Source: Nocardioides mesophilus (lineage in GTDB: Bacteria; Actinomycetota; Actinomycetes; Propionibacteriales; Nocardioidaceae). Taken from it: a stretch of 64,000 nucleotides of DNA. The stretch covers positions 2,012,501 to 2,076,500 of the forward strand of contig NZ_CP060713.1 in NCBI RefSeq assembly GCF_014395785.1, read 5' to 3'. A program made the translations under genes and the position numbers. The notes below the pieces were generated by a model. The model was not told where the DNA came from. It did no database searches and worked only from the letters and a program-made list of their open reading frames with translations. Shown here in pieces: positions 1,988 to 13,243 of the stretch (position 1 is the stretch's first letter; every line of letters begins with the position of its first letter).

Positions 1988-3223
1988 TCAGCCGGTCGCC
2001 AGCGACTCGCGGGACACCGGGCAGGACATGCAGCGCGGGCCGCCGCGACCGGAGCCGAGCTCGGAGCCGGCGATCGCGACGACCTCGATGCCGGCCTCCT
2101 CGAGGCGGCTGTTGGTCTCGATGTTGCGCTCGTAGGCGACCGCCACCCGGGGCGAGAGCGCCAGGGTGTTGTTGCCGTCGTCCCACTGCTCCCGCTCGGC
2201 GGTGACCGGGTCGAGCCCGGTGTCGATCTGGTGCAGCGTGTCGATGCTCATCGCCTTCGCGGCCGCGACCAGGAACGGCTCGGCGCGAGCCACCTCCAGC
2301 ACGAGGTCGGCGTCCCCGTCGCCGGTGCGCTCGCGGCAGGTGACGGCGTACGCCTGGAGGTTGTCGGCGATGTTGGGGTACATCACGATCTTGTCGACGT
2401 CGACCATCGTGCACACGGTGTCCAGGTGCATGGTGGCGCGCTCCTGCGCGATGGGTACGGCGAGCACCGTCTCGGCCAGGCCGGCGGCGAACACCTGGCG
2501 GGCCAGCCGCTCCGCGCCGGCCGGGGTGGTGCGCTCGCCGACGCCGACGGCGATGACGCCGGGAGCCAGCAGCAGGACGTCGCCGCCCTCGACGTGCTCG
2601 CGCTGCCAGCCGTGCAGCGTCGGGGTGCCGGCGAACCGCGGGTGCTCGGTGTAGATCAGCTCGGTGAGCTGGGTCTCCCGCTCCCGGGCCGGCATCGCCA
2701 GGGAGGTGATCGCCACCCGGTCCCGCACCCAGACGCTGGAGTCGCGGGTGAAGAGCAGGTTCGGCAGCGGGTCGATCAGGAAGTCGTCGCTGTGCAGCAG
2801 GCTGGTGACCAGGCCGTGACCGCCGCGGACCTCGTCGTTGCGGACTCCGGCGGTGAGGAACGAGGCCAGCTCCTCGGGCGACTGGTCGTGCAGCGCGGAG
2901 GTGAGGTAGCCGCGCAGCGTGTCGCCGAGGTGCAGGCTGGACATCGCCCCGGTGATCGCGTGCTCCCGGGCGGTCTCGCTCTGCAGCGTCTCGGTGAGCA
3001 GCTCGACGAGGTAGAGCACCTCGACGTCGCGGTCGCGCAGCGCCTGCGCGAAGGCGTCGTGCTCGTCCTGCGCGCGGCCCACCCAAGGGATGCCGTCGAA
3101 GAGCAGCTTGTCGTTGTTGCGCGGCGTGAGCCGCTTCAGCTCCGGGCCGGGGCGGTGCAGCATCACCGTCCGCAGCCGGCCGACCTCGCTGTCGGCGCCG
3201 TGCGGTGCTCGCTGGTTCTCCAT
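1988..3223 (-). CDS. arcA: arginine deiminase
   Basis: 411 residues, the normal length for arginine deiminase (L-arginine + H2O to L-citrulline + NH3). The family signatures are in order: MLHRPGPEL (21-29), LFTRDSS with the catalytic Asp (157-163), EGGD (212-215), MHLDTV with the catalytic His (265-270), and the nucleophilic Cys in MSCPVSR (about residue 401). The start at 3223 (MENQR) gives the usual N-terminus; the open frame upstream is unrelated. No ornithine carbamoyltransferase, carbamate kinase or arginine/ornithine antiporter is nearby, so this is not a classical arc operon. The enzyme may serve nitrogen salvage or acid defence rather than ATP formation. Confidence 0.95.
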
Positions 3224-3233
3224 GAGGCGAACC

Positions 3234-4202
3234 CTAGACCGTCGCGCCGCTCCCCGGGCCGGCCGGCGGCGACGGCGGTGGTGTCGGCAGCTCCTCGGAG
3301 ACCTGGTCGTGCACGATCGCCGAGCCGGCGACCTGGCCCGCCGCGGCGGCCGACAGTACGGCGGCCATCGGCATCGGCAGGGACGGCCGGTGGGCCGCAT
3401 CCCCCGCGGCGTAGACGCCCGGACGGCTGGTGCGGCCCAGATCGTCGACCGACACGCAGCCGGACGGCAGCAGGTCCAGGCCCAGCTGCTCGGCGAACGG
3501 GGCGGCCTGTGACAGCACCGGCGCGACGAACAGACCGGCGACGTCGACGGCGTCCCCGGTGACGAGCTCCACGCGAGCGCCGGGGGAGCTCTCGCGCACC
3601 CCGACCACGCGCGAGGTCACCACGGTGGCTCCCAGGCTCGCGAGCTGGGTGGCGACCACCGGGTCCGGAGCGGCGCCGTCGGTGAGCACGGTGAGCGACG
3701 ACGCGATCGGCGCGAGCATCCCGGCCAGCACCGCTGCGTGCGGCGTCGCCGCGAGGATTCCCACCGGCGAGCCGGTCAGCTCGTGGCCGTGGCAGAACGG
3801 GCAGTGCGCGACGACGTCACCCCAGAGCTCCGCGAGCCCGGGCACGTCGGGCAGGGTGTCGCGCAGCCCCGTGGCGATCAGCACCCGCCGACCCCTGACC
3901 TCCGCGCCGTCGGCGACGTTCACGCGGAAGCCGGAGTCGTCGGGTGCGACGGCGGTGACCCGGGCGGCGCGCACCTCGACGGTGTCGTAGCCGGCCAGGT
4001 CGGCCCGGGCCTGCGCCCGGAACGCGGCCGGCGGCTGACCGTCGTGGCCGAGGACGTTGTGCATGTGGGCGGCCGGGTCGTTGCGGTAGCGGCCGGAGTC
4101 GAGGACGAGCACCGAACGGTGCATCCGGCCGATCGAGAGCGCCGCCTGCAGCCCGGCCGGCCCTCCGCCTAGCACCACCGCGTCGTACGTCTGAGTGTCC
4201 AT
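3234..4202 (-). CDS. thioredoxin-reductase-like NAD(P)/FAD-dependent oxidoreductase
   Basis: 322 residues. It has an N-terminal FAD-binding Rossmann motif GGGPAG (12-17), a redox-active CPFC (134-137) in the position of the TrxB CxxC, and a C-terminal GDAAH FAD motif. The protein belongs to the TrxB/AhpF-C fold, but its partner disulfide protein is unknown. The final 25 residues are a Pro/Gly-rich tail. The start at 4202 is set by a strong AGGAGG seven bases upstream. The gene is divergent from a MerR regulator, and its promoter carries a 24-bp operator in a 19-bp spacer (4241-4271), so MerR-type activation is expected. Arginine deiminase follows 10 bp downstream on the same strand and may be co-transcribed. 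Confidence 0.9.
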
Positions 4203-6470: not shown

Positions 6471-7162
6471 TCCCGGTCCCCGGGCTCGTGCGGGCGGGCG
6501 TTGCGGGCCACCCGGGCGGCGAACACGCCGGCGCCGTAGCCGTTGTCGATGTTCACGACCGTGACCCCGGGGGCGCAGGAGTTCAGCATCCCGAGCAGGG
6601 CCGCCAGCCCGCCGAAGGAGGCGCCGTAGCCGACGCTGGTGGGCACGGCCACGAGGGGTACGCCGGTGAGCCCGCCGACCACGCTGGGCAGCGCGCCCTC
6701 CATGCCGGCCACCACCACCAGGCAGTCGGCCCGGGCGAGGTCGTCGCGGGCGGCGAGCACCCGGTGCAGGCCGGCCACCCCGACGTCGTTGACCCGGTGC
6801 ACCCCGGCGCCGTAGACCCGCGCGGTCAGCGCCGCCTCGGCGGCGACCGGGGCGTCGGAGGTGCCGGCGGAGACGATGGTGACCAGCCCCCGCGACGGCG
6901 GCAGCGGGCCCAGCGTGGCCGCGCCGGCGACCTCGTCGAGGACCGCGTCGGGCAGCTGCGCCAGCACGGCCTCGCGGGACGCCGCGGACAGCCGGGTGGC
7001 GAGCACCGCCCGGTCCGGGTGCGCGGCGTGCAGCCGGGTGAGGATCTCGACGACCTGCGCCGGTGTCTTGCCGGCGCCGTAGACGACCTCGGGGTCGCCC
7101 GTCCGCGCCGCGCGGCCGGTGTCCAGGCGCGCGTAGCCGAGGTCGTCGATGTGGTCGCTCAC
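6467..7162 (-). CDS. larB: nickel pincer cofactor biosynthesis protein LarB
   Basis: 231 residues from GTG 7162 (VSDHIDDLGYARLD). The C-terminal two-thirds is a PurE-like fold, with VTIVSAGTSDAPVAAEAA, DVGVAGLHR and VVVAGMEGALPSVVGGL as recognisable blocks. LarB carboxylates the pyridinium ring of nicotinic acid adenine dinucleotide and releases AMP, the first step of nickel-pincer cofactor synthesis. The frame is open to 7225, but that would overlap the divergent pheA start; GTG 7162 leaves a 61-bp intergenic space and has GGAGA upstream. It is the first gene of larB-larC-GDT1, joined to larC by a GTGA overlap. Confidence 0.92.
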   Translation of the reverse strand: MSDHIDDLGYARLDTGRAARTGDPEVVYGAGKTPAQVVEILTRLHAAHPDRAVLATRLSAASREAVLAQLPDAVLDEVAGAATLGPLPPSRGLVTIVSAGTSDAPVAAEAALTARVYGAGVHRVNDVGVAGLHRVLAARDDLARADCLVVVAGMEGALPSVVGGLTGVPLVAVPTSVGYGASFGGLAALLGMLNSCAPGVTVVNIDNGYGAGVFAARVARNARPHEPGDRE

Positions 7163-7223
7163 GCGAGCGAATCTATCTCCGGCGCCCGCGTGGCCGGCCG
7201 GGGAGGTCACTAGGGTGGGCGCC

Positions 7224-8162
7224 ATGCCCGGAGTCCCGCCCGCCCGCTACGCCTACCTCGGCCCGGAGGGCACCTTCACCGAGCAGGCGCTGCGCACCCT
7301 CCCCGCGGCCGCCAAGGCGGACCTGCAGCCCTGCTCCACGGTGACGCTCGCCCTCGACGCGGTCCGCGGCGGCGAGGCCGACGGCGCGGTGGTGCCGATC
7401 GAGAACTCGGTCGAGGGGTCGGTCCCGGTCACCCTGGACGAGCTGGCCACCGGCGAGCCGCTGATGATCACCCGCGAGATGACGGTGCCGATCGCATTCA
7501 GCCTGCTGGCCCGGCCCGGGACCTCCGCCGACGACGTACGACGGGTGGCGACCCACCCGCACGCGGCCGCCCAGACCAGGCGCTGGGTGGCGCTGCACCT
7601 GCCGCGGGCCGAGGTGGTGCACACCTCCTCGACGGCGCAGGCCGCCTTCATGCTGACCCGCGAGGACCGGGAGTGGGACGCCGCGATCTCGGCGCCGGTG
7701 GCGGCCGAGCACTACCGGCTGGCCACCCTGGCCACCGGGATCGCCGACAACCCCGACGCGCTGACCCGGTTCGTGCTGGTCTCGCGCCCCGGGCCGCCGC
7801 CGCCGCCGACCGGTGCGGACAAGACCTCCCTGGTGGCCTTCATGCGCGAGGACCACCCGGGGGCCCTGATGGAGATCCTCGAGCAGCTCGCGATGCGCGG
7901 GGTGAACATGACCCGGATCGAGTCGCGGCCCACCGGGGCCGCGCTCGGCAACTACTGCTTCTCCGTCGACTGCGAGGGGCACGTCGACGACGCCCGGGTC
8001 GGCGAGGCGCTGATGGGGCTGCGCCGGGTCTGCGCCGACGTCCGGTTCCTCGGCTCCTACGAGCGGCACGACGGCATCGCGCCGACGATCCGCCCGGGCA
8101 CCTCGGACCGGGAGTTCCTCGACGCCGCCGCCTGGCTCGCGCGCCTCCGCCACGGAAGCTGA
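7224..8162 (+). CDS. pheA: prephenate dehydratase
   Basis: 312 residues; prephenate to phenylpyruvate + CO2 + H2O, for phenylalanine synthesis. The catalytic PDT domain (about 6-185) begins AYLGPEGTFTEQAL and has PIENSVEGSV and the conserved TRF motif in LTRFVLVSR. The ACT domain (about 203-280) contains GALMEIL and the ESRP motif for allosteric phenylalanine binding. It is the stand-alone monofunctional form found in actinobacteria, without chorismate mutase. ATG 7224 is used, following CTAGGGTGGGCGCC. It is divergent from larB and followed by a DUF4446 gene 23 bp downstream. Confidence 0.95.
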   Translation: MPGVPPARYAYLGPEGTFTEQALRTLPAAAKADLQPCSTVTLALDAVRGGEADGAVVPIENSVEGSVPVTLDELATGEPLMITREMTVPIAFSLLARPGTSADDVRRVATHPHAAAQTRRWVALHLPRAEVVHTSSTAQAAFMLTREDREWDAAISAPVAAEHYRLATLATGIADNPDALTRFVLVSRPGPPPPPTGADKTSLVAFMREDHPGALMEILEQLAMRGVNMTRIESRPTGAALGNYCFSVDCEGHVDDARVGEALMGLRRVCADVRFLGSYERHDGIAPTIRPGTSDREFLDAAAWLARLRHGS

Positions 8163-8185: not shown

Positions 8186-8605
8186 ATGAATGAGACCCTG
8201 CTGGCCGTGCTCGCCGTCCTCGGCGTGCTGCTCGCCGCGACCGCGCTGGTGCTCGCCCTGCTCGCGCTGCGCCGCACCGGCTCGAACCGGCGCACCGCCC
8301 GTCGCGCCGGCGAGCTGCCGGTCGACGTCCAAGGACTGCGCGCCGAGGTGCACGCCCTCCGCACCGAGGTCTCCGACGCGCTGCGGCACCTCGCGGTGGT
8401 GCGCTACGACGCCTTCGGCGACATGGGCGGCCACCTGTCCTGGTCGCTGGCGCTGCTCGACGACGCCGGCGACGGGGTGGTGCTGACCTCGATCCACGGC
8501 CGCAGCGACGCCCGCACCTACGCGAAGAACATCACCGACTGGTCCTGCGACCAGCCGCTCTCCCCGGAGGAGCAGGAAGCGATCAAGTTCGCCCGCACCG
8601 CCTGA
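8186..8605 (+). CDS. DUF4446 family membrane-anchored protein
   Basis: 139 residues. One N-terminal membrane helix (about 5-29, LLAVLAVLGVLL...) is followed by a basic stretch, a short predicted coiled coil (VQGLRAEVHALRTEVSDALRHL) and the DUF4446 domain (VRYDAFGDMGGHLSWSLALLDD... GVVLTSIHGR... YAKNI). The function of DUF4446 is unknown. The gene sits directly downstream of pheA on the same strand, an association I recall from other actinobacteria, with 23 bp between them. ATG 8186 is the only reasonable start. Confidence 0.9.
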   Translation: MNETLLAVLAVLGVLLAATALVLALLALRRTGSNRRTARRAGELPVDVQGLRAEVHALRTEVSDALRHLAVVRYDAFGDMGGHLSWSLALLDDAGDGVVLTSIHGRSDARTYAKNITDWSCDQPLSPEEQEAIKFARTA

Positions 8606-8663: not shown

Positions 8664-10415
8664 GTGACCGACGACTGGGTGGCACAGGGCGGTTGGACCA
8701 CGGAGGACGCGGTCCGCCTGTACGCCGCCCACCGTCTCGGCCTCGTCCGGACCGCGTCGCTGCTCGTCGGCGACCAGGACGCCGCGGAGGACCTGGTCCG
8801 GGACACCTTCGCCGCCTTCCTCGCCCGCCGCCACGGCGTCCACGACCCCGACGAGGCGCTCGACCGGCTGCGGTCCGCGCTGGTGCTCCGCTCCCGCCGC
8901 GCGGTCCGGGACGACCAGCGAGCGCGACCGGACGAGAAGCCCCGGAACCTCATCGAGGCCGTGCGGCGGCTGCCGGCCCGGCAGCGGGAGGTGCTGGTGC
9001 TGCGCTACTGGTGCCGGCTCTCGGAGCTCCAGACCGCCGACGCGCTCGGGACCAGCGCCACGACCACCAGGTCGAGGACCCGGCGCGCGCTGGAAGCGCT
9101 CGCAGCGTCCGGGGCGTCCGGCACGTCCGGAGGCTTCAGCGCGCGCGAGGAGGGAGCGGCGGCGGATCCCTCCCTCGAGGACCGGCTGGGGTCCGTGTTC
9201 GCCGCCCGGGCCGAGGCGGTCGCTCTCGAGGACCTGCGGCCGTTCGAGGTGCCCGAGCCGGCCCGGCGCAACCGGCGCCTCGTCGCGCTCATGGCCGGCG
9301 CCACCGCCGCAGCGGCCGTCGTCGCCGCTCCGTTCCTCACCGGGGCCGAGGACAAGCCGCCCCCCGCGGACCCGCCGGGAGCCGTCCGGATGGACGTCGA
9401 CGGCGACGGCGACCCCGACCTGGTCAGCGTCAGCTTCGACCTGGCCGCGCACACGTACCTGCTGAGGGTCGCGGTCTTCGACGGTCCCACAGTGACCCAC
9501 CAGGGTCTCGCCCTGCACGCGCCCACCATCCTGGGCGGGGCCGACCTCGACGACGACTACTCCGCCGAGGTCGCGCTCAAGGTGTCGCAGAGCACCGCAC
9601 GGCTCCCGGAGTTCTTCCGCTACGTCGACGGCCGGCTCACCCGCCTGGACACGCCGGCGGTGACCGAGCGGGTCCACGGCTGGGACTCGGAGTCACCGGG
9701 CAACCAGTTCACCCTCCAGGACGGCCGGCTCTACACCTGGGCGCTCCAGCCGAGCGCCCCCGACGGGGCGGACACGGTCGCGTTCTGGGCGTGGCGGGTG
9801 CGGGGGGACGCCCTGCTGCCCGGGCCGCGGCAGCAGCGCTGCCTCAGCGTCGAGGACCCGATGCCGGTGGAGTGCGGGGTGATCCCGGAGGAGGAGAGCC
9901 AGGAGACCACCGCCGACCTCGACGGTGACGGGCTCCCCGACGACGTCCGCCTCTCCTTCACCGCGGCGCAGATCCAGCACTCGATCGCCGGCTACCGGGT
10001 CCGGGCCGCGCTCTCCGGCGGCGGCAGCGTCGCGGCGGAGGGCCCGGCGGGCGGACGGCCGATGCTGCTGAACCCGCTCTCGCTCGGCCACGACGAACGC
10101 CAGCAGGTGCTGGTCAGCCAGGCCGCCGGCGACTCGCTGTCGCTGTCGCTGTTCGGGCTCCTCGACCACCGGCTGGTGCTGCTGCTCGAACCGAAGCAGC
10201 CGGAGCTCGGGTACGGGGTCCACGACGGCCGGGTCTACCGCTGGGCCGCCTCTCCGGGCCGGCTGGTGACCTTCACGAAGGCGGCCCTGGTGAGCCCCGG
10301 GGTCCGTCGCGTCGACGGCTTCGAGTGGCGCGTCAGGGCCGGCTCGCTGGTCGCCCGCCCGCTGGACGACCAGTGCCTCCGGGCCGGCCGGGGCTACCTC
10401 CCCGAGCCCTGCTGA
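8664..10415 (+). CDS. ECF (SigE-like) sigma factor fused to a membrane anchor and extracytoplasmic FG-GAP-like domain
   Basis: 583 residues in one uninterrupted frame from GTG 8664. Residues about 15-145 are an ECF sigma factor: region 2 is LYAAHRLGLVRTASLLVGDQ... AEDLVRDTFAAF, and region 4 is AVRRLPARQREVLVLRYW with an HTH to 145. A Gly/Ser/Ala-rich linker follows (150-170). LEDRLGSVFAARAEAV (171-186) resembles the N-terminus of separately encoded partner proteins. A single membrane helix (206-227) leads to a large outside domain with three Asp-rich calcium-loop-like motifs: DVDGDGDPD (244-252), DLDDDYSAE (294-302) and DLDGDGLPDD (418-427). Normal ECF factors are about 170-200 residues. The window also holds the unfused equivalent at 23967-25678. 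How a tethered sigma factor would act is not known; cleavage is one possibility. Confidence 0.8.
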   Translation: MTDDWVAQGGWTTEDAVRLYAAHRLGLVRTASLLVGDQDAAEDLVRDTFAAFLARRHGVHDPDEALDRLRSALVLRSRRAVRDDQRARPDEKPRNLIEAVRRLPARQREVLVLRYWCRLSELQTADALGTSATTTRSRTRRALEALAASGASGTSGGFSAREEGAAADPSLEDRLGSVFAARAEAVALEDLRPFEVPEPARRNRRLVALMAGATAAAAVVAAPFLTGAEDKPPPADPPGAVRMDVDGDGDPDLVSVSFDLAAHTYLLRVAVFDGPTVTHQGLALHAPTILGGADLDDDYSAEVALKVSQSTARLPEFFRYVDGRLTRLDTPAVTERVHGWDSESPGNQFTLQDGRLYTWALQPSAPDGADTVAFWAWRVRGDALLPGPRQQRCLSVEDPMPVECGVIPEEESQETTADLDGDGLPDDVRLSFTAAQIQHSIAGYRVRAALSGGGSVAAEGPAGGRPMLLNPLSLGHDERQQVLVSQAAGDSLSLSLFGLLDHRLVLLLEPKQPELGYGVHDGRVYRWAASPGRLVTFTKAALVSPGVRRVDGFEWRVRAGSLVARPLDDQCLRAGRGYLPEPC

Positions 10416-10443: not shown

Positions 10444-11520
10444 TCAGGAGTCGCGGTGCCCGCAGGGCCCGTCGGGCCGGACGTCCAGGCGGGAGCCGGC
10501 GACGTCGAGGGCGACGGTGGCCAGCGTCCGGTGCCAGAGCACCGGGTCCGTGTCCCGGTCCGGGTGCGCGCAGATCGCTCCGGCGCCGTCCTCGGTGAGG
10601 TCGTGGTCGGTCATCGCCGTCACCACCTGCTCGGGCGAGGCGGGCGGGCCGGCGGCGAACGCCTGCTCGAGCTTGGCGCGCCGGGTGGCGCTCCCCGTGC
10701 CGAGGGTCGCGGCGAGGCAGCCGGCCTCGCCCTCGGGGGAGACGAAGTGGTTGGTGCGCACCAGCAGGCCGTCGCTGGGGTCGAGCCGCCCCGGGCCGCC
10801 TGGGAAGAGCTCGATGGTGGCGGCGGTCCCCTCGGCGTCGAGGACGGTCAGCGAGGTGGACGCGGAGGTCGGCGCCTGGGCGATCTTCCAGGCGTCGTCG
10901 AAGGACTGCGCCTCGTCGAGGATCCGCCGGCTGAGCAGGTGCACCGGGTAGCCGATCGTGCCCTCGGCGACCCGGGCGGCGTCGTGGGCGTGGTGCAGCA
11001 TGTTGAGCATCACGCCGACGCCGTACCCGTTGACCCCGATCTTGCCGAGCATCCCGAACTCGGTGACGGTCTCCACGACCCGGCCGTCCGGGTGCGGGAT
11101 CCGCCAGTGGAACCAGCCGTCGGACATCGCGTGGTACCAGTCCCAGGTCTGCACCGCGAACGGCGCGCGCCCCTCGGGCAGCGAGACCACCGACGAGCAC
11201 TCGGAGATCCCCGTCGGGTTGGCCGCGACCAGCAGCTCGGTGCGGGCGTTGATCGCGGCGATCTCGTGCACCGGTCGACCGGCGCCGGCGGCGATCCCCG
11301 CGATCTCCTCGGCGTGCAGTGGCGCGAGGTCGAGGATGCTCTCCCAGGCCCGGCCCGCCCACAGGTCGACGTCGAAGGTGCGGGAGCCGGCCCGCGCGGC
11401 GAACAGCCGACGGTAGGCGGCGACCGTGGCGGCGATCTCGGCACGGAAGTGCTCGCCGAGCTCGGCGCCCCGGTCGTAGGGCTCGAGCACGGAGGAGGTG
11501 AAGGTCACAGGGGCGGGCAT
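10444..11520 (-). CDS. C45-family autoproteolytic acyltransferase/hydrolase (Ntn hydrolase)
   Basis: 358 residues. It resembles acyl-CoA:6-aminopenicillanate acyltransferase and acid-ceramidase-like Ntn hydrolases. The likely nucleophile is C108 in GISECSSVV, exposed as an N-terminal Cys after self-cleavage between E107 and C108. Other family blocks are INARTELL (about 90-97), QTWDWYHAMSD, EFGMLGKIGVNGYGVGV and RTNHF. The substrate is unknown; relatives cleave or form amide bonds of N-acylated compounds. It has no signal peptide. It stands alone between the sigma-fusion gene (convergent) and the PAP2/diacylglycerol-kinase gene, 24 bp upstream on the same strand. Confidence 0.85.
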   Translation of the reverse strand: MPAPVTFTSSVLEPYDRGAELGEHFRAEIAATVAAYRRLFAARAGSRTFDVDLWAGRAWESILDLAPLHAEEIAGIAAGAGRPVHEIAAINARTELLVAANPTGISECSSVVSLPEGRAPFAVQTWDWYHAMSDGWFHWRIPHPDGRVVETVTEFGMLGKIGVNGYGVGVMLNMLHHAHDAARVAEGTIGYPVHLLSRRILDEAQSFDDAWKIAQAPTSASTSLTVLDAEGTAATIELFPGGPGRLDPSDGLLVRTNHFVSPEGEAGCLAATLGTGSATRRAKLEQAFAAGPPASPEQVVTAMTDHDLTEDGAGAICAHPDRDTDPVLWHRTLATVALDVAGSRLDVRPDGPCGHRDS

Positions 11521-11544: not shown

Positions 11545-13095
11545 TCAGTGCGGCACGCGGACGAGCAGCCGGCCGTGCCGGACCTCGGCGTTCAGCTCGC
11601 GGCCGGCGCCGATCGGGTCGCCGTCGAGCTGGCGCGGGGTGTCGGTGGCGGCCCGGACGGAGACCTTGCGGCCGGTCATCCGGTTCACGGTGTCGTCGGT
11701 GCGCTTTCCCTTGCTGAGGATGCGCACCGCGAGCGGGATCCAGGACAGGAAGCGCCGCGGGTGCAGGATCACCACGTCGAGGATCCCGTCGTCGATGGCG
11801 GCGTCGGGGAGCAGCGGCATCCCGGCCTGCAGGTAGCCCACGTTGCCCACCACGACGGTGCGCGCCCGGTGCTTGGTCCACGGGCCGCCGTCCAGGGAGA
11901 TCTCCACCCGGACGGGCTGGAACATGATGTTGCGCAGCCCGGACACGATGTAGGCCAGCCAGCCGACCTTGGCCTTGATCTGCTCGTTGGCGCCCTCCAT
12001 GATCGCCGCGTCGAAGCCCATCCCGGCCATCACCAGGAAGTGCTCGTCGGGGCCGATGCCGTCACCGGAGATCGCCACCAGGTCGATCGCCCGGTCCTGA
12101 CCGTTGAGGCCGACGTCGATCGCGGCGTTGAGGTAGAGCGGGATGTCGAGGTTGCGGGCCAGCAGGTTGCCGGTGCCGGCGGGCACCACGCCGACCGGGA
12201 TGCCGGTGCCGGCCAGCTCCGCGCACACGGTGCGCACGGTGCCGTCGCCGCCGCAGACCAGGACCAGCTCGGCCCCGTCGATCGCGGCCTGCTCGGCCAT
12301 CGAGCGGCCCGGGTCCGCCACCGTGGTCAGGTGCCAGGTCGGCGCGGTCCAGCCGGACTCGGCGGCCATCCGCTCGACCAGCGCCTTGAACGCGTCGACG
12401 TCCTCGACCTTGATCGGGTTGAGGATGACCGCGAGCTTGCGGGTCCGGGGCAGCGGCCCGGCGAAGGTCTCCTTGGGGCGGGCCCGCGGTGCGGGATCGA
12501 AGACCAGCGCGGCGGCGAGCACCCAGAAGACGCCGACGCCGTAGCCGGCGACGACGTCGGAGAGGTTGTGCACGCCGAGCAGCAGCCGGTCGGAGCCGAC
12601 CAGCACGACCAGCGCGAGGGCGAGGCCGATGATCGCGCGGCGCTGGCTGCGACGACGCACCAGCAGCGACGCCAGCAGAATCGCGACGCCGGCGGCGGAG
12701 GCGATCCCCGAGGAGTGCCCGCTCGGGAACGAGAACGAGCTCAGGGTCTGGACCGGGTCCTCCCAGACCGGGCGGGTCCGGCCGAAGGTCTGCTTCAGCA
12801 CCGTGGTGGTCAGCGAGGCGCCGCTCATCACCACGACCGTCCAGATCGCCGCCCGGCGGTGCTTGCGCAGCGCGAGCATCGCGGCCGCGACGACCGTGTA
12901 CGCCGTCATGGCGATCGTGCCGAACGCTGTCTGCACGAAGAGCAGGAAGTGCAGCAGCCAGTGCTGGGAGACGCTCCAGGTGTAGACCTCCCTGCCGACC
13001 CCGCCGTCGACCTGGTCGAGCTGGGTCAGGTCCGTCCGCACGAGCAGGCACAGCACCAGCACCACGACGGCGCTGATCACCGCCCAGATCGCCAT
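11545..13095 (-). CDS. PAP2 phosphatase-diacylglycerol kinase fusion membrane protein
   Basis: 516 residues from ATG 13095. Residues 1-195 are a PAP2 integral membrane phosphatase with all three motifs: KQTFGRTRP (101-109), SFPSGHSS (122-129) and SDRLLLGVHNLSD (168-180). Residues about 220-515 are a diacylglycerol-kinase catalytic domain with NPIKVED and the nucleotide motif CGGDGTV (281-287), then VPAGTGNLLARNL. The bifunctional protein could dephosphorylate a lipid phosphate or pyrophosphate and phosphorylate a lipid on the same membrane; actual substrates are unknown. GTG 13167 would add a basic 24-residue extension. Neither start has a good ribosome-binding site. It is divergent from serS. 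Confidence 0.9.
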   Translation of the reverse strand: MAIWAVISAVVVLVLCLLVRTDLTQLDQVDGGVGREVYTWSVSQHWLLHFLLFVQTAFGTIAMTAYTVVAAAMLALRKHRRAAIWTVVVMSGASLTTTVLKQTFGRTRPVWEDPVQTLSSFSFPSGHSSGIASAAGVAILLASLLVRRRSQRRAIIGLALALVVLVGSDRLLLGVHNLSDVVAGYGVGVFWVLAAALVFDPAPRARPKETFAGPLPRTRKLAVILNPIKVEDVDAFKALVERMAAESGWTAPTWHLTTVADPGRSMAEQAAIDGAELVLVCGGDGTVRTVCAELAGTGIPVGVVPAGTGNLLARNLDIPLYLNAAIDVGLNGQDRAIDLVAISGDGIGPDEHFLVMAGMGFDAAIMEGANEQIKAKVGWLAYIVSGLRNIMFQPVRVEISLDGGPWTKHRARTVVVGNVGYLQAGMPLLPDAAIDDGILDVVILHPRRFLSWIPLAVRILSKGKRTDDTVNRMTGRKVSVRAATDTPRQLDGDPIGAGRELNAEVRHGRLLVRVPH

Positions 13096-13243
13096 CAGGC
13101 GCCGGGCACGGGGGCGAAGGACACGGAGGCTCCTGGCTGCGGGGGACGAACGACCCAGTATGACCACCGCGCCGTGCCCGGCCGCGGCACAGGTAGTCCG
13201 GGCGGAGACCAGCGCCACAGGACGCTCTCGTTAGGCTGGAGGC

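Follow-up and report, generated by a model that had tools for sequence, protein, structure and literature searches.

Fusion of a SigE-family sigma factor gene with its membrane partner gene in Nocardioides mesophilus, with a degenerate sigma half

A reading frame of Nocardioides mesophilus places sigma factor regions, a membrane helix, and an outside domain in one predicted chain, which raises the question of whether the chain is a genuine fusion of two genes and whether its sigma domain can still serve as a sigma factor. We analyzed a 64,000-nucleotide stretch (NZ_CP060713.1, positions 2,012,501 to 2,076,500; hereafter, the window) of this high-GC genome, which is a single contig of 4.49 Mb. 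The features of the locus are listed in Table 1. The single frame of the original prediction, 8664-10415, was indeed open and coding throughout. GC contents at codon positions 1, 2, and 3 were 0.795, 0.527, and 0.959 in the sigma part and 0.784, 0.510, and 0.964 in the partner part. In order, the protein consists of a sigma-like domain (residues 7-150), a linker (151-171), a cytoplasmic segment (172-203), a helix (204-226), and two outside copies (244-394 and 418-572). The AlphaFold2 model of the fused protein, run as a single sequence, had a mean pLDDT of 37 and was too poor for use.

Table 1. Features of the fused gene and its neighbors, in window coordinates.
Feature	Coordinates	Strand	Basis or remark
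Prephenate dehydratase gene, upstream context	7149..8162	+	PF00800
DUF4446 gene, upstream neighbor, marker of the orthologous locus	8186..8605	+	PF14584; synteny
Fused gene, 583 aa	8664..10415	+	GTG start, TGA stop
SigE-family ECF sigma-like domain, degenerate, residues 7-150	8682..9113	+	TIGR02983; 37/97 near-invariant positions changed
Region 2.4 equivalent, rewritten: LVLRSRRAVRDDQRAR vs VVNGSRSALRRRRTAR in the family	8880..8927	+	alignment
Region 4.2 helix-turn-helix equivalent	9027..9092	+	9/21 near-invariant positions changed
New linker, replacing the stop and start of relatives	9114..9176	+	SD-like AGGAGGGAG at 9148
Former partner N-terminus, cytoplasmic EDRL...ARA...EDLRP segment	9177..9272	+	motif residues invariant in 8/8 partners
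Transmembrane helix, residues 204-226	9273..9341	+	hydropathy; aligned hydrophobic stretch in 8/8 partners
Outside domain copy 1, residues 244-394	9393..9845	+	Ca-loop-like motif 9393-9419; weak FG-GAP
Outside domain copy 2, residues 418-572	9915..10379	+	Ca-loop-like motif 9915-9941; self-comparison
AAT-like acyltransferase gene, downstream neighbor	10444..11520	-	PF03417; synteny

The sigma half descends from the SigE family: TIGR02983 was the best NCBIfam match of the fused protein (E 5.6e-27), identity to split homologues was 45-50%, and the locus is shared with them. At the seven closest homologue loci (L026-L032), the sigma factor and the membrane partner are separate genes without exception, and the sigma stop and partner start overlap each time in the four bases ATGA. 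A total of 139 loci was fetched, many covering one and the same place, giving 111 partner frames and 112 sigma frames. After duplicates were removed and the partner N-terminus was matched, 63 distinct split junctions were obtained, 62 with ATGA and one with GTGA. Separate proteins, which had been set against the fusion from the outset, are thus what the homologues encode, and they point to the ancestral state, not to a missed stop. The stretch 'LEDRLGSVFAARAEAV', marked beforehand as a former N-terminus, aligned with the N-terminal ends of the unfused partners, so that the origin by fusion agreed with both the split homologues and the place of the partner N-terminus. Judged from its sequence, the gene is a fusion of a SigE-family ECF sigma gene with a single-pass membrane partner gene.

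The fused form was not conserved, a point that had been raised for checking; within the genomes covered, the fusion was confined to this species, and none of the close relatives carried it. Of the 139 loci, only the three copies of the window locus and one remnant (L096) had the two profiles within a single frame. Among the matches listed for 341 family and 394 class genomes, which are overlapping sets, a junction profile spanned both halves free of stops only in the window and in genome G153. A conserved fusion was rejected on this ground, since G153 carries a different SigE-family sigma and membrane partner in its stop-free frame (L169:2740-4623, plus strand). That junction retains an in-frame ATGA with C6 runs just upstream, and its sigma is intact (TIGR02983, 184.3 bits). 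G153 was therefore rejected as a second case and counted as a frameshift, real or artefactual. The partner profile matched in 75 of the 341 family genomes, weak and partial matches counted, and a scan of genome contigs gave one planctomycete locus with 27% identity over residues 19-258. The remnant L096 (G359, 3199-4020, minus strand) is a 274-aa frame in which the first part of the sigma domain is joined to the second half of the outside domain. It contains neither region 4 nor the membrane helix, and it is either what an internal deletion left of such a pair or a fault in the assembly.

The gene order in the window was pheA, DUF4446, the fused gene, the AAT-like gene, and a PAP2-DAGK gene. 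DUF4446 also lies upstream of the pair at L026, L028, L029, L030, and L031 and was not found in the stretches examined of L027 and L032, and the PAP2-DAGK gene follows the pair at L028 and L029. The nearest genus member, G001, whose DUF4446 is 77% identical, carries the pair in split form. One of its contigs carries pheA, DUF4446, and one more gene, presumably a glycosyltransferase gene, and ends within the sigma gene. The other starts in sigma region 4 and continues with the stop, the overlapping ATG, the partner, the AAT-like gene (78%), and the PAP2-DAGK gene (72%). From the flanking genes, we infer that the two contig ends come from a single locus. The remaining members, G002-G006 (five of the six other genus genomes), have pheA, DUF4446, and the AAT-like gene, and the pair is absent. 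The ATGA-overlapping pairs of relatives and the split pair of G001 at the equivalent locus therefore indicate that the split state is ancestral and the fusion derived. The simplest history is a fusion event on the line leading to this species and loss of the locus in relatives.

Several other arrangements were observed around these loci. In G003, an unrelated gene group (L047:2293-5466, minus strand) occupies the position that the sigma-partner pair has in relatives; one of its products, of 679 aa, is presumably of the alpha/beta-hydrolase type. In G172, a tandem partner paralogue lies between DUF4446 and the pair (L029:6031-7389, minus strand); this second membrane protein resembling the partner has no sigma gene of its own. 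The PAP2-DAGK gene of the window (11545-13218, minus strand) joins a PAP2 phosphatase domain and a diacylglycerol-kinase-type domain in one protein and recurs at several relatives' loci. The window also contains a second SigE-like sigma match (L005; 24030-24473, plus strand), which is 39% identical to the sigma part of the fused protein.

A sequencing or assembly error could also have joined two genes. Every other such pair is split, and the stop-free junction of G153, with its ATGA beside C6 runs, indicates that such errors may occur. However, no stop is found in any frame between 9101 and 9462 of the window, and a one-base indel after 9101 would move the sigma-frame stop to 9463 or 9926, beyond the membrane helix. 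The junction contains neither ATG nor TGA, the start codon of the partner is gone, and the linker is longer than that of relatives. The in-frame start codons near the junction, at 9195 and 9249, both come after the conserved EDRL motif. Thus, a single indel error cannot explain the fusion, and a missed stop or frameshift was rejected. No start codon follows the SD-like AGGAGGGAG, which is possibly a relic of the partner's ribosome site. Furthermore, the sigma half has diverged along its whole length, unlike the effect of a point error, and the genome consists of a single contig. We regard an artefact as very improbable.

Next, the sigma half was compared with 50 split pairs (51 taxa including the window; fragmentary, frameshifted, and distant ones, e.g., L088, L093, L098, L099, L114, and class-level matches, were left out). 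The sigma half departed at 37 of 97 near-invariant columns, seven of the 37 being gaps, compared with 9 in the next worst sequence and a median of 1 (n = 51). G001 was compared separately because the assembly gap cuts its sigma gene; at the columns that it covers, departures numbered 1 of 24 and 1 of 21 in G001, compared with 5 and 9, respectively, in the window. The FastTree branch of the sigma half measured 1.21, against 0.33 for the next longest and a median of 0.044. TIGR02983 scored 94.6 bits on the fused protein, under the curated cut-off of 141.55 that six of seven close homologues pass, the seventh reaching 140.9 bits. Of sigma regions 2 and 4, both assigned by the original prediction, region 4 passed Pfam (Sigma70_r4_2, 45.3 bits against a cut-off of 25.7), whereas region 2 gave a partial Sigma70_r2 match under the cut-off (17.3 against 24 bits), which the three homologues tested all passed (31.7-37.2 bits). 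Both regions are degenerate, so that the assignment of the two in the original prediction goes too far.

The changes were distributed unevenly (permutation p 0.012) over regions whose boundaries we set from general knowledge of ECF factors. Changed positions numbered 6 of 28 in 2.1-2.2, 13 of 23 in 2.3-2.4, 6 of 9 in the linker, 3 of 16 in 4.1, and 9 of 21 in 4.2, and the linker after the region 2.4 equivalent shows a net in-frame deletion. Much of the family's conserved promoter-reading sequence is lost, and a simple reading of the protein as a tethered sigma factor was not supported. Net charge is little altered from family to window, from +6 to +4 in the 2.4 segment and from +2 to +3 in the 4.2 helix, so that loss of DNA contact is not proven. 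Similarly, DNA binding may survive, since region 4 still passes Pfam.

The partner half departed at 3 of 19 near-invariant positions, inside the ordinary range, and its FastTree branch (1.34) was the third longest of 52 and near several others. The sigma half has thus ceased to be a standard sigma factor, a point absent from the original prediction, whereas the partner half is ordinary. Hydropathy confirmed the expected membrane helix as the only one, at approximately residues 204-226; the best 19-residue Kyte-Doolittle mean was 2.02, and the next elsewhere was 1.40. Three calcium loops had been read from the outside part. Two of them, DVDGDGDPD (residues 244-252) and DLDGDGLPD (418-426), fit the DxDGDGxxD form well, and the third, DLDDDYSAE (294-302), was found to be weaker. 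All eight aligned partners share three Asp and one Gly of the first loop without exception. The outside part is an internal duplication, whose halves align mutually at E 6.9e-16. Each copy opens with a DxDGDGxxD loop and closes with a conserved Cys pair (C393/C404 and C571/C583), the Cys being invariant in 8/8 partners. Pfam FG-GAP remained below its cut-offs on this domain (16.3 and 14.5 bits against 26.9 and 22.1), indicating a weak resemblance, and the partner profile matched no PDB entry at E up to 1. The sigma-like domain would lie inside and the duplicated Ca-loop domain outside, and the cytoplasmic EDRL...EDLRP segment is a putative old sigma-binding segment.

What, then, could the fused protein do? 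We propose, with a probability of about one half, that it is a one-piece membrane sensor, in which the sigma-like domain persists as a binding module and the ordinary free sigma function is gone. The main rival is a working membrane-tethered sigma factor, freed by regulated proteolysis as has been proposed for IutY and ECF48/52/53, in which the changes would reflect a new promoter specificity. Regions 2.1-2.2 and 4.1, which are core-binding surfaces, are the best preserved (22 of 28 and 13 of 16 positions kept), and the genome contains Site-2-type M50 protease genes (five stretches over the cut-off at three places). Fused sigma/membrane regulators with proteolytic release are described in PMC8999054 and PMC5826349. 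However, an M50 match was also obtained in all 14 control genomes, so that its presence says little. Region 2 falls under the Pfam cut-off, 2.3-2.4 and the linker lose 19 of 32 near-invariant positions, and Pfam finds no zinc-finger anti-sigma domain. We consider a protease-released sigma factor unlikely and favor a membrane sensor whose promoter reading is lost or changed, a function deduced from sequence comparison. According to PMC7406223 on ECF/anti-sigma complexes, polymerase and the anti-sigma factor are both bound through regions 2.1-2.2, and the better conservation of these regions here fits docking to either.

The second rival is that the gene is on its way out, the fusion having inactivated the sigma factor and the frame persisting only through translation into the partner, or by chance. 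The pair is missing from the DUF4446-AAT-like interval of G002-G006, and G359, elsewhere in the family, carries the internally deleted remnant. Neutral change simulated to equal divergence left 16-29% of runs free of stops, and the absence of stops is thus weak evidence. In simulated neutral decay toward 74% equilibrium GC, however, GC2 rose by ~0.06 (sd ~0.025) and GC3 fell by 0.04-0.07 (sd 0.02), whereas the sigma half of the window (GC2 0.527, GC3 0.959) resembles intact homologues. The absence of drift at both positions favors continued protein-level constraint on the sigma half over neutral decay, although, coming from one sequence, it is not decisive. In addition, the partner half is conserved as in others, and the frame contains neither frameshift nor stop. 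We consider decay unlikely, and slightly less probable than proteolytic release.

The two features of the fused protein are known separately, as sigma/anti-sigma fusions (IutY; ECF48/52/53) and as a degenerate sigma-like domain (PhyR); their combination in a SigE-family pair is new, and a literature search from which subscription journals were mostly out of reach found no SigE-family fusion with a degenerate sigma domain. The split SigE-family pairs (TIGR02983 with an unnamed partner) share the DUF4446 locus, the domains and their order, and the partner motifs, but they are two ATGA-overlapping proteins with canonical sigma residues, whereas the window encodes one protein with a degenerate sigma. 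According to PMC8999054 and PMC5826349, IutY of Pseudomonas putida (ECF243) and ECF48/ECF52/ECF53 (SCO4117) likewise start with an ECF sigma domain, which is followed in the same polypeptide by a membrane helix and an outside domain. The sigma domains of IutY and SCO4117 are, however, shown or argued to be active, and fusion in IutY and ECF48/52/53 is a group trait, whereas the window fusion was found in one species. ECF48/52/53 are also described there as having a zinc-finger anti-sigma segment, for which Pfam gave no match after the sigma domain of the fused protein at E up to 1; the transmembrane helix that follows the sigma domain in that type is present by hydropathy. In PhyR of Alphaproteobacteria, as presented in PMC8103513, the regions of the sigma-like domain that contact promoter and core are degenerate, and the domain is retained as a binding module that titrates an anti-sigma factor. 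As a response regulator whose core-binding region is described as degenerate too, PhyR differs from the membrane-anchored domain of the window. By its description in the same text, RsbN-BldN resembles the fused protein in pairing an actinobacterial membrane anti-sigma (ASDIII) with an ECF sigma, but as two proteins.

The membrane sensor that we favor would have arisen when a co-encoded SigE-family sigma and its single-pass partner, normally ATGA-overlapping, became one gene in this species. The fused protein would be anchored in the membrane, its sigma-like domain facing the cytoplasm and its duplicated Ca-loop domain facing outward, where the latter may still sense a signal at the cell surface. 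It would no longer be an ordinary free sigma subunit, and RNA polymerase would no longer be directed to the ancestral promoters by the sigma-like domain. Instead, this domain may serve as a module for docking or binding, with the adjacent putative former anti-sigma-like segment holding it. Likely outputs would be binding of RNA polymerase or of a regulator of some other sigma factor, or, by way of the altered helix-turn-helix, a different DNA target. More tentatively, the protein may be a membrane-bound pseudo-sigma, in which the cytoplasmic output domain of the one-piece sensor serves for docking, as a decoy, or as a single-helix-turn-helix DNA-binding module, not as a polymerase subunit, and which is caught between one relative's split pair and five empty loci.

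The locus offers a well-bracketed evolutionary case, with a split ancestor and a split relative of the same genus, a fused and diverged descendant, and relatives with an empty locus. It resembles a natural instance in which fusion was followed by the retirement or repurposing of a sigma factor, and the annotation "SigE family sigma factor" may be wrong for such proteins. The finding thus opens the question of whether covalent fusion to an anti-sigma-like partner frees a sigma domain to drop promoter recognition and become another regulator.
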